A stretch of 50,739 nucleotides of DNA from the NCBI RefSeq assembly GCF_900009265.2, contig NZ_LR735022.1, positions 150,364-201,102 of the forward strand. The letters run 5' to 3'. Of the stretch, positions 1,284 through 36,431 are shown in pieces. Every line of letters begins with the position of its first letter. The first letter of the stretch is position 1. The notes under the pieces were generated by a model. That model ran no database searches. It was given only the letters and a program-made list of their open reading frames with translations, and was not told the origin of the DNA. Origin of the DNA: Planktothrix paucivesiculata PCC 9631 (GTDB lineage: Bacteria; Cyanobacteriota; Cyanobacteriia; Cyanobacteriales; Microcoleaceae). The translations under genes were made by a program, and so were the position numbers.

Positions 1284-1314
1284 TTTCAAGATTTCCTATT
1301 ATATCCGAGAAGAT

Positions 1315-1341: not shown

Positions 1342-1359
1342 ACTTTGAGCTAATTCCTA

Positions 1360-16250: not shown

Positions 16251-16318
16251 AGAAACACGGTTTCTTGAAGTATGAAAGTTATTGGGATGAGTGCCCCAAT
16301 AGGAGAGGGCTAAAGCCC
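16251..16318. terminator. Cluster of hairpins between convergent genes
   Basis: AGAAACACGGTTTCT (16251-16265) is an imperfect palindrome. TATTGGG (16280-16286) pairs with CCCAATA (16295-16301). GGGCTAAAGCCC (16307-16318) is a palindrome overlapping the stop codon of the minus-strand gene. Together they could end transcription from both sides. Confidence 0.45.
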
Positions 16319-19306
16319 AATAACGGTTTGATAAAATTCCTCTAACCCAGTGACACAAACTTGATCATCAAAAATCAGATGATGGCGATCGCTCATTTGT
16401 TCAGAAAGTGTTTTGCGCCCTACGGGATCTAATCCTAATTTAACCGCAATTTTAATATATTCGGCTTCATTTTCTGCAATGGTTTCGGTTAAACCAATCA
16501 TTTTTAAGAAACTATCAGCATGACGTCCGCGCATGAATTCCCCAGGACAAGTTACAATGGGTAAATTACAGGCGATCGCTTCTAAAGATGTATTTCCTCC
16601 CGACCAAGTAAAGGTATCTAAAAACACATCAGAAAGCAAATTTAACATCAAATAATCAAACCTTTCAGGGACGTTTCGATGTAAACAATAATCTTGATCA
16701 TTTAACCCATAATGAGCAAATGCTTGTTTCAACCGAGCATTTAATAGGGTTCCTCGGAAGAATAAAAACCTAGCATTAGGAACTTTTACCGCAATTTCTG
16801 GTAGAATATAATCATATTGAGGCAAATATTTAAACGGTGCTTGACAACATAAATAAATCACCGCATCCTCGGGTAAATCATAATCTGAACGGGTTTTAAC
16901 TAAGGCTGGAATATCTTGTGGTTTGGGATAAGCAACCCCAATATTGGGCAATAAAATTAGGGTTTCTGAGTAATGTTCCTGGGAGTTTTCCGGTTCCATT
17001 AATTGACTAGAAAGAAAATAATCAATAGTGGGTAGTCCCGAGGTTACGGGATGACCCCAAGCGGTGCATTGAATCGGCACTAAACGCAACGCGGCGAGTT
17101 CCATTGTTGGGGGGTTCATACCAATTTCTGGATAGACTAAAATATGTAGTTTATCCTTAAAAATTTGTTCGGCAACCGCTTCTAAATTGTCTGGAATATG
17201 ATAGAATTTGTAGCTATATTGTCGAAACTGTTCCGTAACTGGATCGGGAGAATTGCCAGTATAATAAGAGTAAATTTCAAACTGATTATGATTAGCATAC
17301 CGCAACCAACCGGTTAACCAAAGTGACCCACTATAACAATGCAAATAATTAGAAACATATCCTACTCTGATTTTATCCTCAACTGTTGGTAGGGTTAACG
17401 CTTGAACCCATTGGGGATATTTTGCTGACATCATTTGATGGAGGAAATTACCATAAATCTGTTGTTCTTTTATAATATTTCTCGCTTGATAACCTAGGTA
17501 GAAATTAGTAAATCTTCCCATTCCTAAAAACGCCTGTTCTAAGGTTTCAGGATCATTAAAATTCGTGGTTTCAATTAAGGTTTTTAATCCTTTTCTAAAC
17601 TGTTCTTGATAATAACTAATTTCTTCAACGGAGTGATAAAACATCGGAACTATTAAATTTTTCAGTAATGTAAAAGTATAATCTTTAGGTAAACATTCCG
17701 AGGCAATTTTCGCTTGTGTAGTGGCTTCTTCTGTTCTTCCCTCATAGAGAAGATTTGTAATGAGGGTAAAGTGGAGAGGTGCAAATTGAGAATAAAGCTC
17801 TAGGGCTGTTTTTAAGATATTAATTGCACTATCATATTCTCCTAAATTCCAGTAACATTGATGAATTTTTTCATAAGTATTAACCTCTTGCTGTTGTAAA
17901 TTAAGTATTTTTTGATATTGGGCGATCGCTCCTTGATAATTCCCTAATTCATACAAGCGATCGCCAAAACTGCTACAATAAGATGCGGGATTTTTTTGCT
18001 GTTCTTTAGCCAGTTCTAAATTGTACAGAATATCAGGATTATTAGGAACAATTTCTAAAGCAATTTGATAGTTTTCTAAGGCTGATTCTATTTGATTTTG
18101 CAATAGAAAAAGATTACCTAAGTTTAAGTAACTGCCAAAATGATTGGGGTTAACATTAATTCCCTGGCGGTAAAGGGTTTCCGCTTCTATAAATTGCCCC
18201 TGTTGCGTTAAGAGATTTCCTAAGTTATTATAGGCATCAATATGATCAGGTTTTAATACGATTGTTTTTTGGTAGGCTGCGATCGCTTGTGCAATTTGAT
18301 TCAATTTTTCCAAACATTGACCTAAGTTATAGTAGCCTTCAAATCTTTCAGAATCGACTTTAATAACCTGAAAACTTGCTTGTAAAGACTGCTGATAATC
18401 TTCACTTTGATAATATAATTGACTTAAATTAATCCAAGATTCCATATGATTTTTATTCCAGTTTAAAACTATTTTATATTTATTTTCAGCTTGAGTAAAT
18501 TTATATTCGTGGTGTAATTTTACAGCCTCTTGATAAATGGTTTCTAACAAGTTTTCTAATTGCTCAATTTGTGAAATTCTTTCAATGATTTGAGGTTGAC
18601 GGTAATTAAATACAACCGATGACTCTAGGCTGATATTTCTATTAATATCTCGACTTAAAACAACCCTTCCATTGCCAACAAAAATAGATTGATAAGACTG
18701 AGATAAAAATTCTTCCTCAATTATAAATTCAGGGTTTACACTGAGAAAATCTGCGATCGCTTGCTGCACAGATGGATGGTTAACTCCCTCAATAATTATT
18801 AAAGATTGATCAGATAAAAAGGATTTTATTAACAATAAACTATACAGAACAGAACGATAATCTTTTTTCCAATCATAGACAAATAACCCAATTTTATTTT
18901 CACAATCAACAGTTTTTAATTCTAATAAAAATTCTTCGGGATCTTGATCAAAGAGAAAGACTTGTTCAGTTAAGTTGAGATTATCTAAATTATCAACTAT
19001 ATTTTCATAATTGCTTGAATTGTTTTGCTGGTAGAATGAATCAACTGCATAAGCCATGCAGTCAGGGTGGTTGACTAACGCAGCAATTAAAGTGCTAAAA
19101 GAATTTACCCCAAGTTGACAATAAATTTCCTCATCTTCTAAATCATCAACTGCCCAATTTAATAGAACACAAAAGATAATTAATTCTTCGTTTTCTAAAA
19201 TCGCCGAAAATGGCTGTAAGTCTTTAAATAATATTGATCCATGCTCCAGTAAATTTTGATTTTGATTGATGGGTGATAATTTTTTAAATAAATTTAGATA
19301 TTTCAT
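16310..19306 (-). CDS. Methyltransferase-like / TPR / GT41 (SPINDLY-OGT type) fusion protein
   Basis: 998 residues in three parts. Residues about 1-215 look like a degenerate Rossmann methyltransferase: IYCQLGVNSFSTLIAALVNH resembles motif I and the following CMAYAVDSF an acidic strand end. Residues about 245-545 hold tandem TPRs (DHIDAYNNLGNLLTQQGQF, NHFGSYLNLGNLFLLQNQI). Residues about 640-998 are the GT41 domain: IRVGYVSNYLH, QCTAWGHPVTSGLPTIDYF, and LDTFTWSGGNTSLEAIACNLP with TCPGEFMRGRHADSF. In human OGT the first motif contains a histidine (GNHP); here the aligned position appears to be Tyr. It is divergent from the plus-strand modification genes and likely transfers a sugar to protein. 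Confidence 0.85.
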   Translation of the reverse strand: MKYLNLFKKLSPINQNQNLLEHGSILFKDLQPFSAILENEELIIFCVLLNWAVDDLEDEEIYCQLGVNSFSTLIAALVNHPDCMAYAVDSFYQQNNSSNYENIVDNLDNLNLTEQVFLFDQDPEEFLLELKTVDCENKIGLFVYDWKKDYRSVLYSLLLIKSFLSDQSLIIIEGVNHPSVQQAIADFLSVNPEFIIEEEFLSQSYQSIFVGNGRVVLSRDINRNISLESSVVFNYRQPQIIERISQIEQLENLLETIYQEAVKLHHEYKFTQAENKYKIVLNWNKNHMESWINLSQLYYQSEDYQQSLQASFQVIKVDSERFEGYYNLGQCLEKLNQIAQAIAAYQKTIVLKPDHIDAYNNLGNLLTQQGQFIEAETLYRQGINVNPNHFGSYLNLGNLFLLQNQIESALENYQIALEIVPNNPDILYNLELAKEQQKNPASYCSSFGDRLYELGNYQGAIAQYQKILNLQQQEVNTYEKIHQCYWNLGEYDSAINILKTALELYSQFAPLHFTLITNLLYEGRTEEATTQAKIASECLPKDYTFTLLKNLIVPMFYHSVEEISYYQEQFRKGLKTLIETTNFNDPETLEQAFLGMGRFTNFYLGYQARNIIKEQQIYGNFLHQMMSAKYPQWVQALTLPTVEDKIRVGYVSNYLHCYSGSLWLTGWLRYANHNQFEIYSYYTGNSPDPVTEQFRQYSYKFYHIPDNLEAVAEQIFKDKLHILVYPEIGMNPPTMELAALRLVPIQCTAWGHPVTSGLPTIDYFLSSQLMEPENSQEHYSETLILLPNIGVAYPKPQDIPALVKTRSDYDLPEDAVIYLCCQAPFKYLPQYDYILPEIAVKVPNARFLFFRGTLLNARLKQAFAHYGLNDQDYCLHRNVPERFDYLMLNLLSDVFLDTFTWSGGNTSLEAIACNLPIVTCPGEFMRGRHADSFLKMIGLTETIAENEAEYIKIAVKLGLDPVGRKTLSEQMSDRHHLIFDDQVCVTGLEEFYQTVIGL

Positions 19307-19446: not shown

Positions 19447-19510
19447 CGGAAAAACTATAATCAAACGAAAATGATCATTTTCCGAAAACAACAGGGTATT
19501 ATAGTATACT
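19447..19510. promoter_or_regulatory. Palindromic divergent control region
   Basis: A perfect 16-bp palindrome GAAAATGATCATTTTC lies at 19467-19482. Around it TCGGAAAA (19446-19453) pairs with TTTTCCGA (19478-19485). TATACT (19505-19510) is a possible -10 for the plus-strand gene starting at 19543. The placement between two divergent modification genes fits a shared operator. No regulator gene is adjacent. Confidence 0.5.
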
Positions 19511-19542
19511 GTAAACAGCGATCTTTAAAATCCTCCTAGTCT

Positions 19543-20796
19543 ATGAATTTTTTAGTTTTGTTAAACTGGACACAAGCAGAATCAGATCTTTTCTTGGAAC
19601 TGGAAACAATAACAAAAATATTTCTCCAACATCATGACAGAGGTAATCTATCTGTCCTTATTGATTACAATGGTATTTCTAGTCAAGAGGTTGACCTGTA
19701 TTTATCAGGTGTAATGATGAACTTACTGTTAGAAGGAGATGAACAATTAGAAACACAGCTAGATATTAGCCTAATTAGTCCAGAAAATTTTGAAGAATGG
19801 TTTAACGCTATTATAACAGTTAATTACAAAATTTTAGGAAGTAATGTTGACGAAAAGCAACTCAATGAATGGTTGAAAATAATCCCTTCAATTACGTTAG
19901 AAACAATTAGAAATACAGAAAAATATAAATTATTATCTACTATAAATGAGGAGCAAAAAATATTTAAATTACAACTAGCACACCAATGTTTTCAGGCTAA
20001 AAGATTTACAGAAGCAGCGAATTTAGGCAGAAATTTACTCTTAGATTATCCAGAGTTAGTAGAAAGAGGTTTCTCGATTCCTCTAGCTCACAGCCTAATT
20101 TTATCGTTAAATTGGTATGAGGTTGCAGCTAATCTTTCCCCAGGAATTAATTATCTCCTGACATCGGGGTGGCTTAATTCACTGTATCAGAGTAAACCTG
20201 TAACCCAAGATAATCGACCGATTCCCTGGTATACTTATCCGACGATTGAATTTTTAGAAGATAAAGTTAGGCCGGATTTTAAAGTATTTGAATTTGGCGC
20301 CGGTCAATCTACCTTATGGTGGTCTGAGCGAGTTTTAGAAGTGATTTCCATTGAAAATGATCCCAATTGGTTTCAAGAAATTAACTCTAAAATGCCTAAT
20401 AATGTGCAACTCTTTTTAAAAGAGAATGAAACGGAGTATGCGGAAATGATCAAACAATTTCCCCTAGATTATTTTGATGTTATTATTGTGGATGGAGCCA
20501 ATCGAAACCAATGTTTAGAACTTAGTTTAAATCATATCAAAGAAACGGGTCTAATCATTTTTGATAATACAGATGATTATAATTACGATCCCTCAGTTAA
20601 ATTATTAGCATCTGAAGGTTATAAACGTTTAGATTTCTGGGGACTAATTCCCTGCTATACCTATAAAAACTGTACTTCACTATTCTTTAAAAAACTTGAT
20701 ATTTTAGATAATCAGGAACTTCCCAGCCAGAAAAAATCTCTTTTGGGTAAAGGATGTTTTCACGTCATGAATCCAAAACCGAATCAAGCTCAATAA
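19543..20796 (+). CDS. SAM-dependent methyltransferase-fold protein with N-terminal shared module
   Basis: 417 residues. Residues 1 to about 100 are the alpha/beta module shared with the next two proteins: MNFLVLLNWTQAESD, LSVLIDYNGIS, LSGVMMNLLLE. Residues about 215-360 show a Rossmann methyltransferase pattern: FKVFEFGAGQSTLWWSERV (motif I with EFGAGQST), VISIEND (acidic end of strand 2), YFDVIIVDGANRNQCLEL and GLIIFDNTDDY. The acceptor is unknown. It is first in a run of three plus-strand genes with methyl- and glycosyltransferase domains, 55 bp from the next. No strong Shine-Dalgarno sequence is seen. Confidence 0.8.
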   Translation: MNFLVLLNWTQAESDLFLELETITKIFLQHHDRGNLSVLIDYNGISSQEVDLYLSGVMMNLLLEGDEQLETQLDISLISPENFEEWFNAIITVNYKILGSNVDEKQLNEWLKIIPSITLETIRNTEKYKLLSTINEEQKIFKLQLAHQCFQAKRFTEAANLGRNLLLDYPELVERGFSIPLAHSLILSLNWYEVAANLSPGINYLLTSGWLNSLYQSKPVTQDNRPIPWYTYPTIEFLEDKVRPDFKVFEFGAGQSTLWWSERVLEVISIENDPNWFQEINSKMPNNVQLFLKENETEYAEMIKQFPLDYFDVIIVDGANRNQCLELSLNHIKETGLIIFDNTDDYNYDPSVKLLASEGYKRLDFWGLIPCYTYKNCTSLFFKKLDILDNQELPSQKKSLLGKGCFHVMNPKPNQAQ

Positions 20797-20851
20797 AATT
20801 CAGATCAAATTCTAATTATTAGATTTATAAATTGTAAAGAGGGTTTAACGA

Positions 20852-23206
20852 ATGAGTAACTTTCTATCACAGATTGCTTCAAAAAACCAGCATTTAATTA
20901 AGTTTCTTTTAGAAAGCGGAAGACCTATTAAAATTGAGTTAGGTTCTTCACAAAAAAGAATGGAGGGGTGGATCACAATGGATTTAGATCCTAAAAGTGA
21001 TTTATGTATGGACTTATCACAACCCTTACCTTTTCCTGATAACTGTGTAGAAGAAATTTATTCATCCCATCTACTTGAACACTTTTCTTTTCCTGATCCG
21101 ATGGTTAACTTTCTGTCCGAATGTTATCGGATATTGAAACCAAGAGGATTTTTTAAAATTGCTGTTCCTAACGCCAGAATCTATATAGAATCCTATGAAA
21201 ATCCCGAACAATTTGATCCTCAAAAATATTGTCTTTATACACCGGCTTATCACTATCATTCCAAAATAGATTTTATTAACTATATTGCTTATATGGACGG
21301 TCATCATCGTTATCTTTTTGATGAAGAAAATTTACCAAAAGTCATTGCTCATGGTGGATTTGAAAATGTGAAACTCAGAGATTTTGAACCAGGGTTAGAT
21401 TTAGAGTCCAGAAAGCATGAGTCAATTTATGCAGAAGCAATAAAACCAGGGGCGAGTTATCCAGTAACAGCTATCTTTAAAAGTGAACAAAAACCAAAAC
21501 TAAAAACTCCTGTTTGTTTAATGATTTTCAATAGACCAGACACAACACAGCAAGTGTTTAATGTGATTCGTCAGATTCAACCTGAAAAACTTCTAGTTAT
21601 TGCTGATGGCCCTCGATTGAATGTCGTCGGTGAAGCCGAAAAATGTGCCGCGACTCGAGCGATTATTAATCAGGTGGATTGGGATTGTGAAGTTTTAACC
21701 AACTATTCTGAGATTAATTTAGGCTGTCGTCATCGGGTTTCGAGTGGATTAACTTGGGTATTTAACACCGTTGAAGAAGCCATTATTCTCGAAGATGATT
21801 GCTTACCGGATGTTACCTTTTTCCGATTTTGTGAAGAATTATTAGAACGTTATCGTCATGAGCCCAACATCATGACAATCTCAGGAAATAACTTTCAATC
21901 TCGACAAAATAATCAACAGGTAAGCTACTACTTTTCTCGATATAATCATCTCTGGGGTTGGGCGACTTGGCGCAGAGCCTGGAAATTCTATGATTTGGAT
22001 ATGAAATTGTGGCCAGAAATAAGAGATAGCAACGGTTTAGAAAAAATACTAGAACATTCTGCTGTAAACGTCGCTGAATGTAAAGAAGTTTTTCAAGCTG
22101 CTTATGAAGGATATAATACCTGGGATCATGCTTGGACATTTGCGTGTTGGGTTCATGGAGGCTTAACGATTTTTCCCCATGTTAATTTGGTTTCTAATAT
22201 TGGTTTTAGGAAAGATGCAACCCATACAACAGATCAATCCCCATTTGCCAATTTACCCACAAAACCGATGAGTTTTCCCTTGCAACATCCTACTGTTGTG
22301 ATGCGTAACACTCAATCTAATAATTTGACTGAGGCTATTATGTTTGGTTCTATATTATATGAGAATATTAGTCACCTCAAATTAAAAGAAATCAATCTGC
22401 TTTTATTCCTTGATTGGACTCAAGAAGAAGATCAACTATATTCCCAGTTAAGTGCTGTTATTAAAACCCTGGTTAATCACCCTGATAAAGCTCAAATTAA
22501 ACTGTTGATTGATCATCAAAAAATCAGTGACGAAGAAGCAGATTTAATGTTATCCAGTATGATGATGAATCTGTTGATGGAAGATGAATTAGATGTAGAA
22601 CAGGGGCCAGATATTACCCTCGTGGGTCAATTAACTCAACCTCAGTGGAGCAATTTACTGTCTGTTGCTCAAGGTCGCATTCGTTTAGAGTCTGAAAACT
22701 TAGCTGGTCTTGACGCTGTTGATGCAGAGCAAATGCCTCAGTTTCCCTTAGAACAGTTACTCGATTGGCGGGGTCTTCAGTTAAAAAATAATCATTGGGA
22801 ATTGTGGAAGCTAAAAGACAAAAACTACATTGCATTTCCAGATTGGAAGCAACCTGAAGAAACGCTTTATTTAGAGTTAGCTAATCTATTTAAATTAGTG
22901 GCTTCTCTACCTAACAAAAATTCAATTACAGTATATCTAAATAGTCATAATATTTCTGATGAAGATGCGAATCTAATTTTATCTAGTATCTTTATGAATT
23001 TATTCATGGAAACGGAAGTAGATATAACCGAAGGATTAGAAATTCTTTTGACCGGACGATTAAGCGATGTACAAAGTCAGGCTTTATACTCTCGTTTAAC
23101 TGCCCGGATAATTTTAGAGCATGAAGATAAAATTGCAATCTCATCTATGGGAGGAAAACCCCTACCTATTTGGGTAATTCCTGAAGAAAGTGTTGCTTAT
23201 CCATAG
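20852..23206 (+). CDS. Methyltransferase / glycosyltransferase fusion with two C-terminal shared modules
   Basis: 784 residues. Part one (about 20-200) is a class I methyltransferase: IELGSSQKRMEGWITMDLDP, DLSQPLPFPDN, SSHLLEHFSFPDP, CYRILKPRGFFKIAVPN. Part two (about 215-480) is a GT2-like/GNT-I-like glycosyltransferase: PVCLMIFNRPDTTQQVF, LLVIADGPR, and EAIILEDDCLPDVTFFRFC, with the acidic EDD as probable metal site, then YNHLWGWATWRRAW. Part three has two copies of the shared module, about 507-620 (INLLLFLDWTQEED, MMMNLLMEDEL) and 655-770 (NYIAFPDWKQPEE, IFMNLFMETEV). The domain order suggests one polypeptide that both glycosylates and methylates a glycan or glycoprotein. Confidence 0.85.
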   Translation: MSNFLSQIASKNQHLIKFLLESGRPIKIELGSSQKRMEGWITMDLDPKSDLCMDLSQPLPFPDNCVEEIYSSHLLEHFSFPDPMVNFLSECYRILKPRGFFKIAVPNARIYIESYENPEQFDPQKYCLYTPAYHYHSKIDFINYIAYMDGHHRYLFDEENLPKVIAHGGFENVKLRDFEPGLDLESRKHESIYAEAIKPGASYPVTAIFKSEQKPKLKTPVCLMIFNRPDTTQQVFNVIRQIQPEKLLVIADGPRLNVVGEAEKCAATRAIINQVDWDCEVLTNYSEINLGCRHRVSSGLTWVFNTVEEAIILEDDCLPDVTFFRFCEELLERYRHEPNIMTISGNNFQSRQNNQQVSYYFSRYNHLWGWATWRRAWKFYDLDMKLWPEIRDSNGLEKILEHSAVNVAECKEVFQAAYEGYNTWDHAWTFACWVHGGLTIFPHVNLVSNIGFRKDATHTTDQSPFANLPTKPMSFPLQHPTVVMRNTQSNNLTEAIMFGSILYENISHLKLKEINLLLFLDWTQEEDQLYSQLSAVIKTLVNHPDKAQIKLLIDHQKISDEEADLMLSSMMMNLLMEDELDVEQGPDITLVGQLTQPQWSNLLSVAQGRIRLESENLAGLDAVDAEQMPQFPLEQLLDWRGLQLKNNHWELWKLKDKNYIAFPDWKQPEETLYLELANLFKLVASLPNKNSITVYLNSHNISDEDANLILSSIFMNLFMETEVDITEGLEILLTGRLSDVQSQALYSRLTARIILEHEDKIAISSMGGKPLPIWVIPEESVAYP

Positions 23207-23429
23207 CAGTGCTTGGCAATGTTAAACAGAGTTTATACAATATAATGAAAGCTTGTCCTAATCAATAAGTTCAATTAAGATAAGAGGGAACGTGATCGTT
23301 TTTACAGTCGCATCGGGTATCTTAGAAATAAAGTAGTTTTGATCAACTAGAAATAAAAATTTAGTTATAGTTTAGATCGGGAAACTCTAAGATAACTCAT
23401 AATCTTAAGCAAATTTATCAATATTATTT
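23207..23429. other. Intergenic region before the third fusion gene
   Basis: 223 AT-rich bases. TATAAT at 23241-23246 is a candidate -10, but no -35 lies at proper spacing. The distance from there to the next start is about 185 bp, so either a long leader exists or the promoter is elsewhere. No coding frame or RNA gene is apparent. Confidence 0.4.
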
Positions 23430-25724
23430 ATGAAATGTAAAGTTTGTGATTCTCAGTCGAATTATTTTGCTACGGCTCAAATTCTCAATAAGTATGATAT
23501 TAGTTATTTCCAGTGTTCAAATTGCGGATTTATTCAAACTGAAGAACCTTACTGGTTAGAAGAAGCATATTCTAATGCAATAGCGATGAGTGATGTTGGG
23601 TTGGTGTTCAGAAACTTAATGTTTTCTGATGTTACCAGTAAACTAATTTTTAATTTTTTTGACCATCAGAGCAAATTTTTAGATTATGGAGCCGGATATG
23701 GATTATTTGTTAGGTTAATGAGAGATAATGGTTTTGATTTTTATTGGTTTGATAAATTTTGTAATAATTTGTTTGCTCAAAGTTTCGAGATTAATTTAGA
23801 TGCGGCTGAAAATAATAGCTTTGAAATTGTAACAGCTTTTGAAGTCTTTGAACATCTGATTAATCCTAGTATTGAGTTAGAAAATCTCTTAAAAATATCC
23901 TCAACTATTTTATTGAGTACAGAGCTACTCCCGGTTAGCAATCCCAAACCGAATGACTGGTGGTATTATGTTTTACATGAAGGTCAACATATTTCAATTT
24001 ATACCCATCATTCTCTGAGAATTTTAGCAGAGCGATATGATTTAAACTTTTACTCTAATGGCAGTTCATTACATTTATTAACAAAAAAAGAATTACCTTG
24101 TAACCCGTTTGAACAATTATCCCGTCAGCAACTTAAAAAAGTAGAAAAATCATCTTTAATTAGCCAAGACTTTAACAATATTCTGGAAAAATATTTTCCC
24201 TCTAATTCAGTAAACAGCATTAATACAGAATCATCCTTGTCCTCCAATTTAGAGACATCAAGGTTAAATAGCCCTCTGAATATTATGATTGATGGGGTCT
24301 TTTTCCAAATGTTTAAAACCGGAATAGCCCGGGTTTGGCAATCGTTATTTTTAGAATGGGCAGTTAACGGATTTGGTCAAAATATTATTGTTTTAGATCG
24401 AGCAGAAACAGCCCCCAAAATAGCAGGAATTAGGTATCTTTCCGTTCCAGCCTATGACTATTCTAAAACAGAAGTTGACCGCCAGATGCTTCAAGAAGTT
24501 TGTGATCAAGAAGCAGCAGACTTATTTGTTTCAACTTACTATACAACGCCCCTATCAACACCATCGGTTTTTATAGCCTATGATATGATTCCTGAAATTT
24601 TAGGGGCGAACCTAGATGAACCGATGTGGCGGGAAAAACATCTAGGAATTGCCCATGCGTCAGCTTATATTTCCATTTCAGAAAGTACGGCAAATGACCT
24701 AGTTAAATTATTTCCAAATATCAATTCTAAAATTACGGTTGCTCACTGCGGAATTTCTCAGACTTTCTATCCGGCACCCCCAGGAGAAATTATTCAATTT
24801 AAAACTAAATATGGAATTAATAAACCCTATTTTCTATTAGTTGGAGCCGGTAGTGATTATAAAAATGCTGTTTTGTTCTTTCGAGGGTTTTCTCAACTTT
24901 ATAGCAAATCAGCATTTGATGTGATCTGTACAGGAGCAGGTTATTTATTAGGACACGAATATCGAGAGTTAGCAGCAGGTAGTACAGTTCATTCTTTGTA
25001 CCTCAGTGATGAAGAACTCAGGGTCGCTTATTCAGGAGCCACCGCCCTAGTTTATCCCTCTAAATATGAAGGCTTTGGAATGCCCATTGCAGAAGCTTTA
25101 GCCTGTGGTTGTCCGGTTATTACTTGTGCAAATGCCTCGATTCCAGAAGTGGCAGGAGAGGCAGCAATTTATATTAAAGATGATGATATTGATGCCATGA
25201 CTGATGCACTTTGCGAGGTACAAAAACTCAAATCCCGTAATATTTTGAGGGCGAAGGGATTGGAACAAATACGGAAGTTTTCTTGGTCAAAAATGGCTAA
25301 TATTATTAGTTCTGCTTTAATTGATGCCACACTTCTGCGTTTAAACCTGAGAGAGATTAATTTAGTTGTTTTTCCCGATTGGAGCCAGCCGGAAGAAGTG
25401 CTTTGTCCTGAATTAACAAGTATAATTAAAACGCTAACAACTCATTCCAAGTGCAGCCAGATCACCTTACTCATTGATCATCAAAACCTATCAGATGAAG
25501 ATGCAAATTTAGCATTGTCTAGTGTGATGATGAATTTGTTAATGGAAGAAGAATTAGAGCTTGATGAAGGTGTAGAAATTGTTTTAATAGGTCAGCTAAA
25601 TTCTAGCCAGTGGTCTGCTTTATGTTCTCAACTCCAGGGTCGAATTAAGTTAAATGCTGAAAATCAAAATGCGATCGCATCTGTCGGAGCAGAAATCATC
25701 CCAATTTATGATTTAGAACACTAA
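23430..25724 (+). CDS. Methyltransferase / GT4 glycosyltransferase fusion with C-terminal shared module
   Basis: 764 residues. The N-terminus has a CxxC...CxxC zinc-ribbon-like element (MKCKVCD, FQCSNCGFIQ), as found ahead of some sugar methyltransferases. A class I methyltransferase follows (KFLDYGAGYGLFVRLMRDNG, ITAFEVFEHL-like EIVTAFEVFEHLINP, about 80-215). Residues about 283-630 are a GT-B family 4 glycosyltransferase: FLLVGAGSDYKNAVLFFRGF and YPSKYEGFGMPIAEALACG with PEVAGEAAIYI, the Ex7E region. Residues about 637-755 are the shared module (INLVVFPDWSQPEE, LLIDHQNLSDEDANL, MMNLLMEEEL). It probably acts on sugars or glycoproteins at the membrane surface. Confidence 0.87.
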   Translation: MKCKVCDSQSNYFATAQILNKYDISYFQCSNCGFIQTEEPYWLEEAYSNAIAMSDVGLVFRNLMFSDVTSKLIFNFFDHQSKFLDYGAGYGLFVRLMRDNGFDFYWFDKFCNNLFAQSFEINLDAAENNSFEIVTAFEVFEHLINPSIELENLLKISSTILLSTELLPVSNPKPNDWWYYVLHEGQHISIYTHHSLRILAERYDLNFYSNGSSLHLLTKKELPCNPFEQLSRQQLKKVEKSSLISQDFNNILEKYFPSNSVNSINTESSLSSNLETSRLNSPLNIMIDGVFFQMFKTGIARVWQSLFLEWAVNGFGQNIIVLDRAETAPKIAGIRYLSVPAYDYSKTEVDRQMLQEVCDQEAADLFVSTYYTTPLSTPSVFIAYDMIPEILGANLDEPMWREKHLGIAHASAYISISESTANDLVKLFPNINSKITVAHCGISQTFYPAPPGEIIQFKTKYGINKPYFLLVGAGSDYKNAVLFFRGFSQLYSKSAFDVICTGAGYLLGHEYRELAAGSTVHSLYLSDEELRVAYSGATALVYPSKYEGFGMPIAEALACGCPVITCANASIPEVAGEAAIYIKDDDIDAMTDALCEVQKLKSRNILRAKGLEQIRKFSWSKMANIISSALIDATLLRLNLREINLVVFPDWSQPEEVLCPELTSIIKTLTTHSKCSQITLLIDHQNLSDEDANLALSSVMMNLLMEEELELDEGVEIVLIGQLNSSQWSALCSQLQGRIKLNAENQNAIASVGAEIIPIYDLEH

Positions 25725-25834: not shown

Positions 25835-26044
25835 TTAAGTCTCACTCTTGTTTTCCACCGCTTCACCCTTGCACTTAGCTAATCGGTATAAAGTGAGTGG
25901 ACTGTGACGGTTATGTTCTTCCACCATAGCAATTAATTCATCCAGTGCGAGGGTAACAGCGTCAATTTTGCAAATAGCCTCCCGCCAGTTTGCAACAGAA
26001 CGTGCTCTTGTCTCTGCATCAGGTATTGTGCGTGGTTTATTCAT
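25835..26044 (-). CDS. Small hypothetical protein
   Basis: A 69-residue soluble protein, MNKPRTIPDAETRARSVANW..., rich in charged residues and predicted helical. It overlaps the end of the preceding 114-residue gene by 4 bp (ATGA), a sign of translational coupling. I do not recognise a family. The pair resembles in size a two-gene toxin-antitoxin unit, but no supporting motif is visible. Confidence 0.55.
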   Translation of the reverse strand: MNKPRTIPDAETRARSVANWREAICKIDAVTLALDELIAMVEEHNRHSPLTLYRLAKCKGEAVENKSET

Positions 26045-26580: not shown

Positions 26581-28800
26581 TTAATTTTTACCCTCAATAT
26601 AGTTTAACCACATTTGTTCATAAGCATTTTCCATTTCCCGGGTAAATTTTTTCCCATTCCACAACGGAGCCGTTTGTCGATTTTTCCTTAATTTCCAAGC
26701 AATTTGTTGGCGTAAATTCTCATCTTTTCCTAACTTAATTCCCCATTCCACATATTCCTCATCTGTCCAAGCAATACCCTCTGTAATTCCGGCATTAATC
26801 ATCATCGTATAACTATTTCGGGCTGAGAATTGTTGCCCGACTCTTGTTACCAATGGAATCCCCATCCACAGAGTTTCCATAGTGGTTGTCGCCCCATTAT
26901 AGGGATAGGTATCGAGTACCACATCAGCAATGGCTAAATTAGCTCTATGGATGGCTTCTGTGGCTGATAAGGGTAGGAGTTTTAAGCGATCGCCCTCTAC
27001 CCCCACCGATTCAGCAATTTCAGCATAAAATGTTTTTAAGGATTCTTGATCGGCCATGCCTTTAATCAGGAAATAACTATTAGGAACTTCCTTTAAAATT
27101 TGTAACTGTAATTTAGCCGTATCTGGATGATATTTATATCCTCGTTGAGCCGTAAAATAAATAATAGCATCATTAGGAATATCTAACTGATCTCGACGAA
27201 TATTAGAAACAGCGACTTCAAAACCATCCACCGCAATATAGGTTTGAGGTAAACGCCAAATTTTTTCACTGTAGTAATTTTGAGCATCTTCAGGTAACAC
27301 ATAAGGGTCGGCAATAAAATAGTCAATAGATGGAATTTCAGACCCATCCCACCCTAACCAAGTCACTTGAATGGGTGCTGGTTTAATGGCTAAGGTTTCA
27401 CAGGTAGAGCTTAAAGTTAAGCTATCAAGATCCACTAAAATATCAATCTCATCTTCATAAATTTTTGGGGCGACTTCCCTTCCTTCTAACCCTAATTGAT
27501 GGGCTTTATTGCTTTTATTAATAAACCAGCTTTGCAATTCATCGGGTTGATCTAAAGCCGCCAATAAATAAGTATGAATAACAAATTTTTCTCGATCATG
27601 GTGTTCAAATAAACTCCGAGTTAACCAACCAACAGAATGACCGCGTAAACAATGAGAAACATAGCCAATTTTTAGGGGTTTTTCCGTAGAGTTAGAGGTT
27701 TTAGGCCGAGATTTCCACTGACGACATTGCTCTATAACCTGCGGAATTTGACTTTCTATATTAGACTGAAGAAATTGCGAAACTTCGCGCCGAATTAATA
27801 AATTTTCCTGGATTTTATCTTGAAAATAGGGAAAGAAAAAAGTTGTGGTAAAACAACCCACCGTTAAATCATAGGAAAAAGTTGGCTTTTCTGTGACTAA
27901 CCGAGTTAGCAGGGAGTGGTAATCTTCCATCACCGAGCAGACCTGTTTCCAGCGTCCACCTGCACTCATTAAACCTCGAAGTAATAAAAATCTCGCATAA
28001 ACTTGATCGGGGAAATCTTCCGCCATCGAGTAACAATACTCCGCCGCTTCTATTCCTTTGGCATATTCCCCAATATCTTGATAAAACATAGACAGACATC
28101 GGAGTAATTCGGGATGTTTAGGATGCAATCTTAACCCTAGCTCTGTAAACTTAATCGAGAGATTTGTTTGATGTCGAGAGTAAGCTAATCTATAAATAAA
28201 TGGAATTAAAAAATTGAGATAAGATTGAATATCGGTAATATAATTAAGAGAAGTTTCAGCAAATTGGTATGATAAAGGATTTTCAGGTGCTTGCTGGCAA
28301 ATTTTATCTAAAACTTGAAGTAAAAGTTCAGGATTAATGTCTGTTGTTGGAATAGGATCGGATTTCAGTAAATCCAAAATTCCCCATTCAATTAGTTCTT
28401 CACCGGTATAGGTTTGACCTATAGCAGATAATTGAACTAAATGCAATAAATTATTAATATATGTGGGATCAATTTCCCGAATATGCTGGCGAATTACCCA
28501 GGCTTTTGTATAATCTTCTAATATTAGCTGTTGGCGTTCGGCTTCCGTTTCTAAAACTTGGATTAATTCCTGTGTCCACTGTTCAATTTCTTCCGGTTCT
28601 CCCTCCGCCATTGCTACTAACCAAGTCGTTTGAGCTTCAACTTCCTGTCCTTGTAGCAACAGTAATAAACCCAAATACCAGTAAGAGGAAGTGATTTCTG
28701 GCTGAGTATTAATCAGTTCTTCATAATGATTTATAGCGGCAACATAATCGCCTGTTTCCAGATATTTAATCCCTTGTTGATTCCCGTTTAGTAAATTCAT
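26581..28800 (-). CDS. TPR / GT41 O-glycosyltransferase-like protein (SPINDLY/OGT family), copy A
   Basis: 739 residues. TPR-like helices occupy about 8-75 (YVAAINHYEELINTQPE) and further helical repeats run to about 290. The GT41 catalytic region (about 375-735) has IGYVSHCLRGHSVGWL, with the OGT-type His preserved, then QVTWLGWDGSEIPSIDYFIAD, AQRGYKYHPDT and LDTYPYNGATTTMETLWMGIP with GQQFSARNSYT. Such enzymes transfer GlcNAc or fucose to Ser/Thr of proteins. It is a tandem paralogue of the gene at 28917-31157, with the C-terminal half much more alike than the N-terminal half. It lies in the same orientation as pilA, so pilin is a candidate target. Confidence 0.87.
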   Translation of the reverse strand: MNLLNGNQQGIKYLETGDYVAAINHYEELINTQPEITSSYWYLGLLLLLQGQEVEAQTTWLVAMAEGEPEEIEQWTQELIQVLETEAERQQLILEDYTKAWVIRQHIREIDPTYINNLLHLVQLSAIGQTYTGEELIEWGILDLLKSDPIPTTDINPELLLQVLDKICQQAPENPLSYQFAETSLNYITDIQSYLNFLIPFIYRLAYSRHQTNLSIKFTELGLRLHPKHPELLRCLSMFYQDIGEYAKGIEAAEYCYSMAEDFPDQVYARFLLLRGLMSAGGRWKQVCSVMEDYHSLLTRLVTEKPTFSYDLTVGCFTTTFFFPYFQDKIQENLLIRREVSQFLQSNIESQIPQVIEQCRQWKSRPKTSNSTEKPLKIGYVSHCLRGHSVGWLTRSLFEHHDREKFVIHTYLLAALDQPDELQSWFINKSNKAHQLGLEGREVAPKIYEDEIDILVDLDSLTLSSTCETLAIKPAPIQVTWLGWDGSEIPSIDYFIADPYVLPEDAQNYYSEKIWRLPQTYIAVDGFEVAVSNIRRDQLDIPNDAIIYFTAQRGYKYHPDTAKLQLQILKEVPNSYFLIKGMADQESLKTFYAEIAESVGVEGDRLKLLPLSATEAIHRANLAIADVVLDTYPYNGATTTMETLWMGIPLVTRVGQQFSARNSYTMMINAGITEGIAWTDEEYVEWGIKLGKDENLRQQIAWKLRKNRQTAPLWNGKKFTREMENAYEQMWLNYIEGKN

Positions 28801-28916: not shown

Positions 28917-31157
28917 TCAAGTTTTATTATTAATATAATTTAACCACATTTGTTCATAAGCATTCTCCATTTCCCGGGTAAATTGTTTCCCATTCCATAA
29001 CGGAGCCGTTTGTCGATTTTTGATCAATTTCCAAGAAATTTGACTTCGCAAATTTTCATCCGTTCCTAACTTAATCCCCCATTGTACATATTCCTCATCT
29101 GTCCAGGCAATTCCCTCGGTAATTCCCGCATTGATCATCATGGTATAACTATTTCGGGCTGAAAATTGTTGTCCGACTCGGGTTACCATCGGAATCCCCA
29201 TCCATAGAGTTTCCATGGTGGTTGTCGCCCCATTATAAGGGTAGGTATCGAGTACCACATCAGCAATGGCTAAATTAGCGCGATGGACGGCTTCTGTGGG
29301 TGACGACGGGAGTAGTTTTAAGCGATCGCAATCTACCCCTACAGAGTCAGCAATTTCAGAATAAAAAGTTTTGAGTGATTTTTGATCGGCTACTCCTTTA
29401 ATAATAAAATAACTATTAGGAACAGCTTTGAGAATTGCTAATTGTAATTGGGCCGTGTGGGGATGATATTTATATCCCCGTTGAGCCACAAAATAAATAA
29501 TCGCATCACTGGGAATATCCAACTGATCTCGTCGAACGTTGGGAATACCCACTTCAAAGCCATCGACAGCCAAATAAGTTTGAGGGAGACGCCAAATTTT
29601 TTCATTGTAGTAACTTTGAGCGTCTTCAGTTAACACATAAGGGTCAGCAATATAATAATCAATAGTGGGAATTTCAGACGCATCCCATCCTAACCAAGTG
29701 ACTTGTACAGGTGCAGGTTTAACAGCCATAGCCTCAGCAGTTGATGTCAAAGTCAGACTATCAAGATCAATTAAAATATCAATTTCATCTTGATCAATTT
29801 TTTCAGCCGCTTCCAGACCACTGAACTCTAATTTACGAACGTTTTCAATATTATTAACATACCAATCTTGGACTTGATTGTAATTATAATGATCGTAACA
29901 AATAAAATAACCAAAAATTTCAAACTTTTCTTTGTTATGATATTGAAATAACCACCGCGCCAGCCAACCCACGGAATGGGAACGAAAACAATGGGAAATA
30001 TATCCGATTTTTAAGCGTCGTTCAACAGCAGGCTGGTGGAAACGGGTAGTTTGTCGGTGGCGATATCGTTCTATTTGTTCCTTCGCATAGTTTTCTATAT
30101 TTAATTGAGCCAGGTTAGAAACTTCACTTCTTAGCCTGGTATTTTCTTGAGGATTATCTTCAAAGTAAGGGGAAAAAAACATTGTATTAAATAATCTAAT
30201 CGTCTCCACTTGCGATAAATCGGTTGGCTGTTCTTCTAATAACAATTTTAATAAATCTTTTTGCTGTTCCGTGGTTTCAACAAATTCTTTCCAGTAGCCC
30301 CCAGCACTCATTAATCCCCGCATAATGAGGTGGATAGCAAAAAATTTTTCGGCTAAATTTTTCGTTAGGGAAAAATAGAGTTTAGCAGCTTGGATTCCCT
30401 GGTCAAAACGGTTGCTATCTTGATAGACAGAAGCACTAAAACAGAGTAATTCAGGATGTTCAGGAGCTAAACGCAAACCCAGTTCAGTAAATTTGGCGGC
30501 GGTACTGAGTTGTTTGGCTGAGTGAGCCATTTTATACACAAAAGGAATGATCAGTTGATTAATAAAGACATCGGTGTTCCGAATATGAACTAAACTGGCT
30601 TCTGTTAAATTCAGGGATGAAGTGAGTAAGGGAGCACTATCTACAACACTTTTAATGACTTCGAGTAATAATTCTGAATCTACCGTTGCGGATTCTTGTT
30701 TGAGCAACTCCAGCAAACCTAATTCAATCGGTTCTCGACCGGTGTAGGTGCGTAAACAGATTGATAATCCGGTTAAATGCAGTAGATTATTAATATCCGT
30801 CGGCTGAATTTCTCGGATATGTTGTCGAATAGCCCAAGCTACGGCATAGTCTTCTAATTCTAAGCGTTGTCGCTCGGCTTCGATTTCCAAGACCTGAATT
30901 AATTCTTGAGTCCACTCCTCTATTTGTTCCGGCTCCCCATCGGCCATCCCAAATAACCAAGTGGTTTGTGCCTCTGCTTCTTGCCCTTGCAATAGCAACA
31001 CCAATCCTAAATACCAATAATGAGATTTTATTTCCGGTTGGACTTCAATGGCTTGTTCATAAAGTTTTGCAGCCTCAGTATAATTATTTTTTAATAACAA
31101 TTGTTCAGCTTTTTCTTGCCAATCCGATGTCATAGCTAGTAAATCTTGAGCAACCAT
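28917..31157 (-). CDS. TPR / GT41 O-glycosyltransferase-like protein (SPINDLY/OGT family), copy B
   Basis: 746 residues, colinear with copy A. TPR-like part about 13-80 (NYTEAAKLYEQAIEVQPEIKS, split), then diverged helical repeats. The catalytic part has IGYISHCFRSHSVGWL with the conserved His, QVTWLGWDASEIPTIDYYIAD, AQRGYKYHPHT and LDTYPYNGATTTMETLWMGIP. The last 200 residues differ from copy A only at scattered sites. It starts with MVAQDLLAMTSDW; a second Met at residue 9 is also possible. It is 108 bp downstream of pilA on the same strand, separated by a terminator-like hairpin. Confidence 0.87.
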   Translation of the reverse strand: MVAQDLLAMTSDWQEKAEQLLLKNNYTEAAKLYEQAIEVQPEIKSHYWYLGLVLLLQGQEAEAQTTWLFGMADGEPEQIEEWTQELIQVLEIEAERQRLELEDYAVAWAIRQHIREIQPTDINNLLHLTGLSICLRTYTGREPIELGLLELLKQESATVDSELLLEVIKSVVDSAPLLTSSLNLTEASLVHIRNTDVFINQLIIPFVYKMAHSAKQLSTAAKFTELGLRLAPEHPELLCFSASVYQDSNRFDQGIQAAKLYFSLTKNLAEKFFAIHLIMRGLMSAGGYWKEFVETTEQQKDLLKLLLEEQPTDLSQVETIRLFNTMFFSPYFEDNPQENTRLRSEVSNLAQLNIENYAKEQIERYRHRQTTRFHQPAVERRLKIGYISHCFRSHSVGWLARWLFQYHNKEKFEIFGYFICYDHYNYNQVQDWYVNNIENVRKLEFSGLEAAEKIDQDEIDILIDLDSLTLTSTAEAMAVKPAPVQVTWLGWDASEIPTIDYYIADPYVLTEDAQSYYNEKIWRLPQTYLAVDGFEVGIPNVRRDQLDIPSDAIIYFVAQRGYKYHPHTAQLQLAILKAVPNSYFIIKGVADQKSLKTFYSEIADSVGVDCDRLKLLPSSPTEAVHRANLAIADVVLDTYPYNGATTTMETLWMGIPMVTRVGQQFSARNSYTMMINAGITEGIAWTDEEYVQWGIKLGTDENLRSQISWKLIKNRQTAPLWNGKQFTREMENAYEQMWLNYINNKT

Positions 31158-31264: not shown

Positions 31265-31789
31265 CTATTTCGTCACGACGGTCATGGCAGCTGCACAACC
31301 TACGACAGTTCCATCATTGGTCGTAGCAACAGGAGTTCCTGGGGCAGTGGTTTCACAAAGTACACTCTGAGCAGTCTTGGCATCACTGCCTGGAACCAGC
31401 ACCAATCCAACACCACCAGCATACCCTTTCAAAGCTGAAGTGTTAATAGGTGCAGCAAGACTACCGACGTTACTGGTTGTAGTCGCACTGATTGTATAAA
31501 CATAGTTAGAGGTTTGTGTTTTGAGGCCAATTCCTAGTTGCGTGACATCAGATCCAAAACCATTGTTTTCCACAAAGAAGGCTTGCTGACCTTTGTTAAT
31601 GGAAGAAATATATTGTTTTCCTTCGGATTGTTTGGCTTTGTTAGCTTGGCTGAGGAAGGAAGGCAGAGCAATCGCAGCCAAAATACCGATGATGATGATA
31701 ACAACTAACAGTTCAATTAAGGTGAAACCTTCTTCTTTTTTTCTATTAGAAACGTATTGCAGGAATTTAGCTTTAAATTCAGTCTTCAT
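31265..31789 (-). CDS. pilA: Type IV major pilin-like protein
   Basis: 174 residues from the ATG at 31789, chosen because GGAGAAAAG lies just upstream; an earlier in-frame start would only add an unlikely leader. The 21-residue leader ends KKEEG, followed by FTLIELLVVIIIIGILAAIA, the class IV-a prepilin signature with cleavage after Gly21 and Glu5 of the mature chain. The globular part is Ser/Thr-rich (TISATTTSNVGS), with two cysteines near the C-terminus (LCETTA, VGCAAA) that can form the D-loop disulfide. The many Ser/Thr residues offer O-glycosylation sites, fitting the GT41 neighbours. Confidence 0.93.
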   Translation of the reverse strand: MKTEFKAKFLQYVSNRKKEEGFTLIELLVVIIIIGILAAIALPSFLSQANKAKQSEGKQYISSINKGQQAFFVENNGFGSDVTQLGIGLKTQTSNYVYTISATTTSNVGSLAAPINTSALKGYAGGVGLVLVPGSDAKTAQSVLCETTAPGTPVATTNDGTVVGCAAAMTVVTK

Positions 31790-31862
31790 AGTCTTTTCTC
31801 CGTTTGGGGGGATGTTTAACTTTTTATCTGGTAGTTCTAACTTACCCACCTAATTGAAAGTT

Positions 31863-31891
31863 CATATCACCCCAACAAAAAATTTTTTCAA
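31863..31891 (-). promoter_or_regulatory. pilA promoter candidate
   Basis: On the minus strand TTGAAA (31891-31886) and GATATG (31868-31863) are exactly 17 bp apart. The predicted start of transcription leaves a leader of roughly 65 nt before the ATG at 31789. The -35 overlaps the last codon of the upstream methyltransferase gene. Confidence 0.55.
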
Positions 31892-33216
31892 TTTGATCCT
31901 GAACGCTCCAAAAGCACATAAAGAAAGGCATCCAGAAGGGTGAGGAGTTCTTTGACCTGCTGTAATGCCCTCTGGCCAGTAATAGGTTCTAGGGTAACTG
32001 AATCTACAGAATAGATGTGTTGCCAACGTTCTGCCAGGAACATTACCGTCTGTCCTCCACTCCACAAGGGCAGCAAGCAGGCTGCGCGACTACTCTCAAG
32101 AGTAATAGGTATGGGAGTGGGTAACTTCACATATTGGCTAATTTCATAGGGTCTATGGGTTTTGATAGATTCAATTAGGTCTGCTTTAGCTTGATCGGTT
32201 CTCAGTTGGGGATGTAAATGAACTTGTGCGGTTTGCCAGTTGGCTTCAGTCCATTCACCAACCGGGACAATACACTCCTGCTCAGAATGACCACACCAAA
32301 AATCCAATAATCGATGGACAGGATGAATCAACTCAAATAAATGTAACTGCTCCTCCACCGATGCTTCTGGTAAACTTAAGGCTAGAAAGCCAGGTAAGTG
32401 ATCAGGCTCATTGAATAAATCCATTAGTTCCCATTGTTGCCATTTCACCATACTCAGAAACTGTAAATCAGTTGCTTTCAAAACAGCAAAAACCTCTGGT
32501 ATTGTATAGCCTTTATCCCCTTGTAATAAGTAATTGACAAGCAACCATTCTTCGTTTTTATAACCTGGCGTATTCCAAGTTTGAGCTTTCAGTAAAACTT
32601 CATTTTTGATAGAATTTATCGTATCTCTGGCTACCTCTGCCTTAAGTTCTTGAGAAGATTCATCCATCACTCCCATCATCTTAAATAACGATTGCGCCCG
32701 AAAATAATTTGCTCTTTGATGTAAACTATGTAGATTGGCTCTAATAATGCCCTGTGGTTTTAAAACCTGTTTTATCGCTTGCATCGAATTGAATAAATTC
32801 GGGCACAGATAAAGAACTTCATCCGCATTAACATAATCAAACTGATAACCCAGTTGAGGTAAGTCTTCTATTGACAATACATAAAATTCAGCATTTTCAA
32901 ACCCATTAAACTTTAAACGCTGTCGGGCTAGTTCTACCGATTGTTCAGAAATATCAATCCCAACAATTTTAGCCCCAGGATTGGCTTCGGCTAAGACTAA
33001 GGACTTATATCCGGTTCCACACCCAGCATCTAAAATTAGTTTACCTTCTGTATTAATTAATTTTTTATATTTCAAATAATAAGGGGTGACTAAATTATGA
33101 ATAAACAGTAATTCATAGTCATTTTTAGGAGATTTATCTAAAGGAATTCTCGGATAAGGGGCTGAATCAAACTGCTGACGAATTTTTTTGAATAATTCAG
33201 TATTTTGATTTTCCAT
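31888..33216 (-). CDS. Class I SAM-dependent methyltransferase, paralogue 1 of 3
   Basis: 442 residues. The N-terminal segment QFDSAPYPRIPLDKSPKNDY precedes the methyltransferase core (about 55-190): KLILDAGCGTGYKSLVLAEA (motif I), KIVGIDISEQSVELARQRL and IEDLPQLGYQFDYV. The C-terminal 230 residues are a conserved domain with GDKGYTIPEVF, HRLLDFWCGH and SSRAACLLPLW; I do not know its function, but it probably binds the acceptor. It is the last of three tandem paralogues and the immediate upstream neighbour of pilA. It ends SGSN instead of the RSL of the other two. Confidence 0.85.
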   Translation of the reverse strand: MENQNTELFKKIRQQFDSAPYPRIPLDKSPKNDYELLFIHNLVTPYYLKYKKLINTEGKLILDAGCGTGYKSLVLAEANPGAKIVGIDISEQSVELARQRLKFNGFENAEFYVLSIEDLPQLGYQFDYVNADEVLYLCPNLFNSMQAIKQVLKPQGIIRANLHSLHQRANYFRAQSLFKMMGVMDESSQELKAEVARDTINSIKNEVLLKAQTWNTPGYKNEEWLLVNYLLQGDKGYTIPEVFAVLKATDLQFLSMVKWQQWELMDLFNEPDHLPGFLALSLPEASVEEQLHLFELIHPVHRLLDFWCGHSEQECIVPVGEWTEANWQTAQVHLHPQLRTDQAKADLIESIKTHRPYEISQYVKLPTPIPITLESSRAACLLPLWSGGQTVMFLAERWQHIYSVDSVTLEPITGQRALQQVKELLTLLDAFLYVLLERSGSN

Positions 33217-33321
33217 AATGTTTTTTCTGTAAAAATATGTTTTTTTCTTAATTAAAAGCTGACAAAGAGATTATCAATTTTATCATTAAATTCAACTAGG
33301 AACTATTTTTTTACATCCATT

Positions 33322-34647
33322 TTAAAGCGATCGCTCTAACAGGATATACAAAAACGGTTCCAGATCACTAAGCAGTTCTTTCACTTGCTCAAAAGCCATC
33401 TGATCACTAATCAATTCTAGTGTCACAGAATCTACCGGTTGGATCTGTTTCCATCCTTCCACCAAAGACAGGACAGACTGTTCACCCTCCCACAACGGCA
33501 GCAAACAAGCAGCGCGACTACTCTCGAGATGGATAGTAACCAGTGTGGGCAACTTGACATACTGGCTAATTTCATAAGGTTGATGGGTCGTAATACATTG
33601 AATCAGGTCTTCCTGGGCTTGAACAGTTCTCAGTTGAGGGTGCAAATAAACTCTTGCGGTTTCCCAGTCCCTATCCTCCCAATCTGAAACCGGAACACCG
33701 GACATATGATCATTGGGATGACCGCACCAAAAATCCAATAACCGATGAATTGGATGTAACAATTCATAGAAATGTAAGCGTTCTTCGATAGACAATTCGG
33801 GCAAGCTGAGGGCTAGAAAGGCAGGTAAATTTTCTGGATCTTCAAATAAATCTAAGGGTTCCCACTGTCGCCAACTAACCATACTAATAAACTCTAAATC
33901 AACCGTTCTCAGCGCTGAAAATAAATCAGGAATCGTATAACCTTTGTCTCCCTGAAATAAATAGTTCATTAAAACCCATTCTTTTTCATTTATTTTTTCA
34001 GGCTTATAGGTTTGGGACTTTAATAAAACTGGATTTTTAAAAGATTCCATTAGTTCACCGATGAAGTTAATTTCTAACTCCGTCGGGTTTCCATTCATTA
34101 ATCCAATCCTGTTAAATAGGGATTGCGCCCGAAAGTAATTAACTCGCTGAAATGCACTATGAAGATTTGTTCTAATCATTCCCTCTGGCTTCAATACTGA
34201 TTTCATTGCCTTCAGAGGGACTGTAATATCAGGAAATAAATAGAGAGATTCATCATGATTAATGTAATCAAACTGATAACCGAGTTGAGGTAAGTCTTCT
34301 ATTGGCAACACATGAAATTCTGTATTATCAAAGCCATGATATTCTAACCGTTGACGAGCCAGTTCTACCGATTGCTCAGAAATATCAATTCCAACAATCT
34401 TAGCCCCAGGATTGGCTTCGGCTAAGACTAAGGACTTATATCCAGTTCCACACCCAGCATCTAAAATGACTTTTCCTTCTGTGTTAATAACTGTTTTATA
34501 TTTGAGATAATAAGGCGTGACTAAATTATGAATAAACAGCAATTCATAATCAGTTTTCGGTGATTTTTCTAAGGGAATTCTCGGATAAGGTGCTGAATCA
34601 AACTGTTGACGAATTTTTTTTAATAATTCAGGATCGTGATTTTCCAT
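33322..34647 (-). CDS. Class I SAM-dependent methyltransferase, paralogue 2 of 3
   Basis: 441 residues with the same two-part build: QFDSAPYPRIPLEKSPK, then KVILDAGCGTGYKSLVLAEA and IVGIDISEQSVELARQRL, and the C-terminal domain with GDKGYTIPDLF, HRLLDFWCGHP and SSRAACLLPLWEGEQ. The first 110 residues are almost identical to the other two copies, while the middle third has diverged. Paralogues 2 and 3 share the ending FLYILLERSL. It is separated from copy 1 by 105 bp and from copy 3 by 64 bp. Confidence 0.85.
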   Translation of the reverse strand: MENHDPELLKKIRQQFDSAPYPRIPLEKSPKTDYELLFIHNLVTPYYLKYKTVINTEGKVILDAGCGTGYKSLVLAEANPGAKIVGIDISEQSVELARQRLEYHGFDNTEFHVLPIEDLPQLGYQFDYINHDESLYLFPDITVPLKAMKSVLKPEGMIRTNLHSAFQRVNYFRAQSLFNRIGLMNGNPTELEINFIGELMESFKNPVLLKSQTYKPEKINEKEWVLMNYLFQGDKGYTIPDLFSALRTVDLEFISMVSWRQWEPLDLFEDPENLPAFLALSLPELSIEERLHFYELLHPIHRLLDFWCGHPNDHMSGVPVSDWEDRDWETARVYLHPQLRTVQAQEDLIQCITTHQPYEISQYVKLPTLVTIHLESSRAACLLPLWEGEQSVLSLVEGWKQIQPVDSVTLELISDQMAFEQVKELLSDLEPFLYILLERSL

Positions 34648-34711
34648 GATAGTTTTTTCTGTTAATTATAGCAGTCGAGATCGGGAATTTTTTTCCTTTT
34701 TTTAATTCATT

Positions 34712-36389: not shown

Positions 36390-36431
36390 TTGGCAAAAAA
36401 AGATGAGGGAGAGTTCAAAAACAAGCAATTG

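Follow-up and report, generated by a model that had tools for sequence, protein, structure and literature searches.

Three adjacent genes in a 50,739-nt stretch of the Planktothrix paucivesiculata PCC 9631 genome (contig NZ_LR735022.1, positions 150,364 to 201,102; hereafter the window) encode enzymes of different kinds that all carry the same unnamed domain. What does such a domain do on methyltransferases and glycosyltransferases alike? This domain, here called the module, belongs to a mobile domain family with a range of enzyme partners. It usually lies near pilin and Ogt genes, is predicted to fold like a lobe of the GT-B glycosyltransferases, and has recombination joints located at it. 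We see an even chance that it is a non-catalytic, GT-B-lobe-like unit on interchangeable glycosyl- and methyltransferases near pilin and Ogt, serving both as a docking plug and as a recombination seam.

The Module and Its Family

The module is about 120 residues long and is present in four copies (M1, M2a, M2b and M3), distributed over the proteins P1, P2 and P3. An earlier note, made from the window's sequence alone, had claimed one module in four copies, at the N-terminus of P1, in tandem at the C-terminus of P2 and once at the C-terminus of P3. A profile built with the Planktothrix sequences left out recovered all four at those places. P1 (417 aa, 19543..20796, + strand) starts with M1 (residues 1-119, 19543..19899, E 3.3e-19), followed by a TPR-like stretch recognized by eye and a Methyltransf_24-like domain, whose Pfam match (residues 250-343, E 9.8e-05, 23.6 bits) lies below the cut-off of 26.3. 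P2 (784 aa, 20852..23206, +) consists of a Methyltransf_11 domain (E 1.2e-07), a GT2-like part seen by eye and the copies M2a (residues 510-634, 22379..22753, E 2.5e-41) and M2b (residues 653-774, 22808..23173, E 2.2e-40). P3 (764 aa, 23430..25724, +) combines Methyltransf_23 (E 7.6e-22) and GT4 (Glyco_trans_1_4, E 3.2e-17) domains with M3 (residues 639-763, 25344..25718, E 9.4e-50). The copies are 22-54% identical to each other, M1 being the most divergent.

By sequence comparison, the module forms a new family of cyanobacterial domains that the family libraries used do not contain. In the window proteins, no model of Pfam or NCBIfam reaches its cut-off over the module. For a set of 60 copies, from which locus L003 (the same stretch as L002) had been removed, no Pfam family matched more than two members (best E 0.0028), and the profile of this set found no PDB chain at E ≤ 10. 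A Macscav_rec match to 24 residues of M2b, obtained with the whole of P2 (E 7.8e-4), is below the family cut-off and was taken as chance. The accessible parts of the literature on pilin glycosylation in cyanobacteria, on OGT and on the glycosyltransferases of Planktothrix contain no description of the module that we could find, although a nameless domain cannot be searched by name.

A scan of genome contigs yielded 33 module loci, all titled cyanobacteria; it requires one of two peptide patterns, and divergent relatives elsewhere could escape it. Relatives at E ≤ 1e-5 occur in 63 of 386 genomes of the phylum and in 38 of 142 genera (102 matches listed). More than one copy is present in 26 genomes, with the copies on one contig, 0.3-14.3 kb apart, in 25 of them. 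Spread by phages or plasmids was considered and rejected: the M3 query has no match in either, and among viral contigs, where the 60-copy set has no match either, 41 stretches fit a pattern without a single one being a relative.

Enzyme Partners

The partner regions of 86 distinct module copies were compared all against all by single linkage (BLASTP E < 1e-4 over 80 residues). Near-duplicate loci (L069, L070, L071 and L073, close to L005, L006, L009 and L014) were removed before this clustering, as well as before the tree and the identity medians given below, together with identical modules and any hit that covered less than 90 positions of the profile. The regions fall into 13 mutually unlinked clusters (43, 9, 9, 6, 4, 3, 3, 2, 2, 2, 1, 1 and 1 copies), named from a Pfam run on 21 module proteins (the three of the window, ten others and eight new ones). 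The largest is GT4. GT41 regions form two clusters, one before and one after the module (9 copies each). Regions of FkbM proteins (4 and 1), TylF (3), GT61 (1), Methyltransf_11/23 (2) and Methyltransf_24 (P1 and its relative) account for six more. For two clusters (6 and 3), the representatives scanned gave neither a Pfam match nor a convincing PDB sequence match. The remaining ones are the GT2-like part of the window (2 copies) and a 145-aa open reading frame (ORF) with little else (1). This ORF (L026:9693-10127) is almost the module alone, possibly a stand-alone partner or competitor. At the other extreme, an open frame of 2634 aa (L030:3-7904) combines GT4, Methyltransf_24, TylF and GT41 parts with two modules.

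Some of these clusters belong to a common broad class: two are different GT41 parts, two come from FkbM methyltransferase proteins, and a further three adjoin other methyltransferases. Those partners to which Pfam gives a name are glycosyl- or methyltransferases. The module is found at both protein N-termini and C-termini.

The module tree (125 columns) is poorly resolved, with 40 of 83 inner branches open, and its support values are those of the Shimodaira-Hasegawa-like approximate likelihood ratio test (SH-aLRT) only. Partner labels change at least 30 times on it; 12 changes would be the minimum, and shuffled labels give a mean of 41.4. For the GT4 label, seven changes are forced by the starred branches alone. 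Several starred groups are single lineages whose partners are mixed, among them Okeania with a Microcoleaceae genome (three partners, support 100), both L023 copies with the M2a pair (four partners, 96), 17 Microcoleus-Tychonema rows (four partner clusters, 99) and two copies of L086 (97). Copies of the N-terminal GT41 type group more closely on the tree, with 3 changes for their 9 rows. Median module identity is 47% within a locus for different partners, 52% between loci for the same partner and 43% between loci for different partners. General homogenization within loci is not borne out by these medians across all loci, a likeness of 58-83% being restricted to some adjacent C-terminal copies; concerted evolution is therefore at most local.

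Neighborhood of Pilin and Ogt Genes

Next to the module genes, two Ogt-like GT41 genes adjoin a PilA-like pilin gene, all on the reverse strand: GT41a (26581..28800, Glyco_transf_41 E 4.2e-52), GT41b (28917..31157, E 1.8e-52), which borders the pilin gene directly, and the type IV pilin itself (31265..31849; TIGR02532 prepilin domain, 31.3 bits, cut-off 16.3), whose C-terminus reads VVTK. No module was found by the profile in GT41a or GT41b. This arrangement is that of the cyanobacterial pilA-ogt locus (PMC12288463; Nostoc punctiforme ogtA, PMC6495340). The window differs by the module-bearing tailoring enzymes beside it, which the accessible text of these two papers does not mention.

The same neighborhood recurs. 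A pilin and a relative of GT41a/b are both present at 22 of the 33 module loci, each taken with up to 8 kb of flank and some ending at contig ends; 12 of these 22 also have a methyltransferase relative. A second set of 20 stretches, seven of which (L076-L082) were picked for having no near pilin, contains pilin and GT41 in 11. In 49 of the 63 module genomes, the top pilin match lies no more than 30 kb from a module (median 4.75 kb); in eight it is on a different contig and in six 219 kb to 2.9 Mb distant. For GT41b, 51 genomes have their top match within 15 kb. Ogt was also considered as a mark of the module. An Ogt match exists in all 63 (60 at E ≤ 1e-150; G118, G177 and G332 have weaker partial matches), compared with 11 of 63 random others, but these others are, judging by codes and sizes, largely small-genome and distant lineages; within the same order, Ogt is present in 9 of 11.

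Predicted Fold

AlphaFold2 (AF2) models were made for M1 (predicted local distance difference test score 89.9, predicted template-modeling score 0.84) and M3 (85.2 and 0.78). The two share one predicted fold, and the common fold assumed for the copies holds for those modeled. Both resemble GT-B lobes, and for both the top VIA-align match is a region of Asp1/Gap1, at about residues 319-487 of the chain (PDB 5vaf, 5vae, 6lnw and 6oyc). In a viral fold library all matches were weak, and several were to glycosyltransferases. From these models, the fold predicted for the module resembles that of the C-terminal Rossmann lobe in GT-B glycosyltransferases; the region matched in Asp1 is its own C-terminal Rossmann lobe. 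A family absent from the fold lists is possible.

The earlier note had named an ordinary GT-B C-terminal half as the identity that would count against a separate binding unit. At the level of the predicted fold this is partly what was found; at the level of sequence (Pfam, PDB and hhalign) it was not. With shallow alignments, hhalign gave a probability of at most 0.3% for the module against three GT41/GT4 C-lobe sets of the same loci and 2.7% against the GT4 N-lobe, while GT41 against GT4 C-lobes reached 80.6%. Remote sequence homology to GT-B enzymes was rejected on these comparisons. The module is also distinct from the C-lobe of GT41 O-GlcNAc (N-acetylglucosamine) transferases and SPINDLY: it is a single lobe, and in sequence it showed no similarity to the lobes of GT41 proteins from its own loci.

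The predicted fold would fit a catalytic subdomain that completes or regulates a split GT-B enzyme, but we regard this as very improbable. Module and partner are not the two lobes of one GT-B enzyme: M1 starts at residue 1 of P1, in which Pfam recognizes a methyltransferase and no glycosyltransferase. The partners include methyltransferases and GT61, and the module matches no glycosyltransferase lobe profile in the same shallow alignments. The module is probably non-catalytic, because it is a single lobe without an N-terminal lobe and is also found on methyltransferases.

Accessory lobes of GT-B type are already known from loci for protein glycosylation. Asp1 is a separate protein of about 510 residues that unites the two GT-B lobes, whereas the module is a single domain and mostly fused to enzymes. 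A conserved domain of Gap1 reportedly mediates protein-protein interaction, and Gap1 reportedly acts as a chaperone. Apart from the predicted Rossmann lobe, no sequence similarity to Asp1/Gap1 was found in the PDB search, where the presence of Asp1 in the library is assumed from its coverage. The Asp1/Gap1 loci encode a surface protein that is glycosylated, a GlcNAc transferase that primes it and glycosyltransferases whose number varies (PMC7661464, PMC6973325 and PMC5578698). The surface protein near the module is a type IV pilin and not a serine-rich adhesin. According to PMC5578698, Asp1/Gap1 belongs to a complex serving the GlcNAc-modified adhesin, in which Asp3 binds Asp1 and Asp2.

Recombination Joints at the Module

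Several joints between genes coincide with the module. Positions 19451-22351 of the window are 90% identical in DNA (blastn) to positions 843-3738 of Planktothrix sp. PCC 11201 (L037), which hold a P1 relative and the first part of a 1386-aa gene. Positions 22372-23171 are 73% identical to L037 7997-8796, the tandem modules that end the next gene, encoding a 799-aa protein with a GT4 domain. The 4.26 kb of L037 between these stretches is missing from the window, and the P2 gene therefore reads as a fusion relative to L037. Its joint (22352..22371, +) precedes M2a by no more than about 30 nt.

From sliding DNA identity in 60-nt windows, M3 reads as chimeric relative to locus L070. Upstream of 25490, it is 72-87% identical to L070 module 1 and 44-68% to module 2; at 25490-25669, the values are 92-97% and 57-73%. 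From 25670 on, M3 and the flank that follows it agree with module 2 at 95-97% identity, against 30-43% with module 1, which places the crossover inside M3, in the mixed window 25640..25699 (+). Between the matched stretches, L070 carries the body of an additional 524-aa gene, which has module 2 at its end. The junction may represent a loss in the window or a gain in L070.

A clean best-match switch across the module is also found in L074 compared with L008, where module 1 is the match of the left flank (80-98%) and module 3 that of the right flank (85-97%), with a complete gene plus the body of another in between. L028 and L036 show the same switch in their flanks relative to L030, not sharp within the module, and L021 compared with L008 has no clean second parent. 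Alignment ends (≥85% identity) fall within 75 nt of the module in 47 of 72 cases, against 13.6 expected by length; this count mixes duplicate loci and plain gene ends, and the claim of splicing rests on the single joints.

Joints at the module occur in Planktothrix, Microcoleus-type and Rhizonema loci. Such a spread would also suit a hitch-hiker of recombination, which began as a C-terminal extension of a pilin-locus GT4 and multiplied as a repeated homologous stretch, with no common binding partner. Half of the copies (43 of 86) indeed follow GT4, with a fixed spacing of three residues in 35 of 36 measured. Even so, we consider this reading unlikely: the FPDW/NW and MNLL motifs are retained in divergent copies, and both the N- and C-terminal placement and the nearly solitary 145-aa ORF suggest selection for function.

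Proposed Role

The docking plug that we propose would be common to the tailoring enzymes and would recruit them either to the substrate, once glycosylated, or to the complex of Ogt. The substrate primed by Ogt would be cytosolic, putatively the pilin, and what the module binds would belong to the pilin glycosylation pathway. Asp1/Gap1, within the complex acting on the streptococcal serine-rich adhesins, offers an analogy for this role. As a homologous stretch common to neighboring genes, the module could also act as a seam for gain, loss or fusion of enzyme cassettes. Of the mobile docking or binding unit of one pathway envisaged in the earlier note, the mobility and the single pathway are favored by the range of partners, their repeated change on the tree and the recurrent pilin/Ogt neighborhood; the binding and its target remain the conjectural part.

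The data do not separate protein docking from glycan binding. The module may be a lectin-like pocket at the edge of a GT-B cleft, holding the growing glycan (e.g., O-GlcNAc). Several of the most conserved residues, F11-P12-D13-W14 after strand 1 and E107 after strand 4, would lie where strands end C-terminally, which is the ligand edge of Rossmann folds, judging from the order of elements, and the Pfam-named partners are glycosyl- or methyltransferases. No OGT or GT4 donor-binding motif is recognizable by eye, though, and the conserved hydrophobic helix LSSVxMNLLM suits a protein interface equally well. We judge the pocket rather unlikely, and docking is somewhat favored over glycan binding by analogy, because the nearest precedent, Asp1/Gap1, belongs to a complex.

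Under the docking plug, pilin glycosylation could be combinatorial. Any module-bearing glycosyl- or methyltransferase would be recruited to PilA-Ogt, and cassettes would be shuffled through the module, as the homologous stretch that ends neighboring genes, so that pilus glycans vary between close relatives with the docking code kept; this extension is offered tentatively, as a possibility that we find doubtful. If the docking plug is real, it would explain how a changing set of unrelated enzymes serves one glycosylation pathway. The module would further be a sequence marker for pilus-tailoring enzymes in filamentous cyanobacteria and a fusion tag to direct glycosyltransferases to a chosen substrate. 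Pilus glycan variation, with its bearing on motility and aggregation, would be testable straight from gene arrangement. Found again in dozens of related genomes, the module is probably a docking plug through which the enzymes that decorate the pilus can be replaced by others.

Other Genes of the Locus

Three tandem S-adenosylmethionine (SAM) methyltransferases of about 440 aa lie beside the pilin (31888..36034, -; Methyltransf_31, E 6.3e-29 to 5.5e-28). In Synechocystis, trimethylation of the C-terminal lysine of PilA1 has been suggested to be essential, according to PMC12288463. Based on this suggestion and on the lysine that ends the window pilin, they are candidate pilin lysine methyltransferases. 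Among 30 pilins from non-duplicate loci, 23 end in lysine.

GT41a and GT41b are adjacent and 63% identical over most of their length, constituting a tandem duplication. On the other side of the module genes, a divergent neighbor encodes a 998-aa TPR and GT41 (SPINDLY-like) protein (16310..19306, -; Glyco_transf_41 E 5.6e-33), in which the profile found no module, even with filters off. A 405-aa protein (36390-37607, +) resembles 'methanogenesis marker 16' (TIGR03287, E 8.8e-36), at 123 bits, below the cut-off of 364, despite the Planktothrix-like character of the window. A 114-aa ORF (26041-26385, -), which separates the module genes from GT41, has relatives in the corresponding position of the Planktothrix-like loci L005, L006 and L068-L070.
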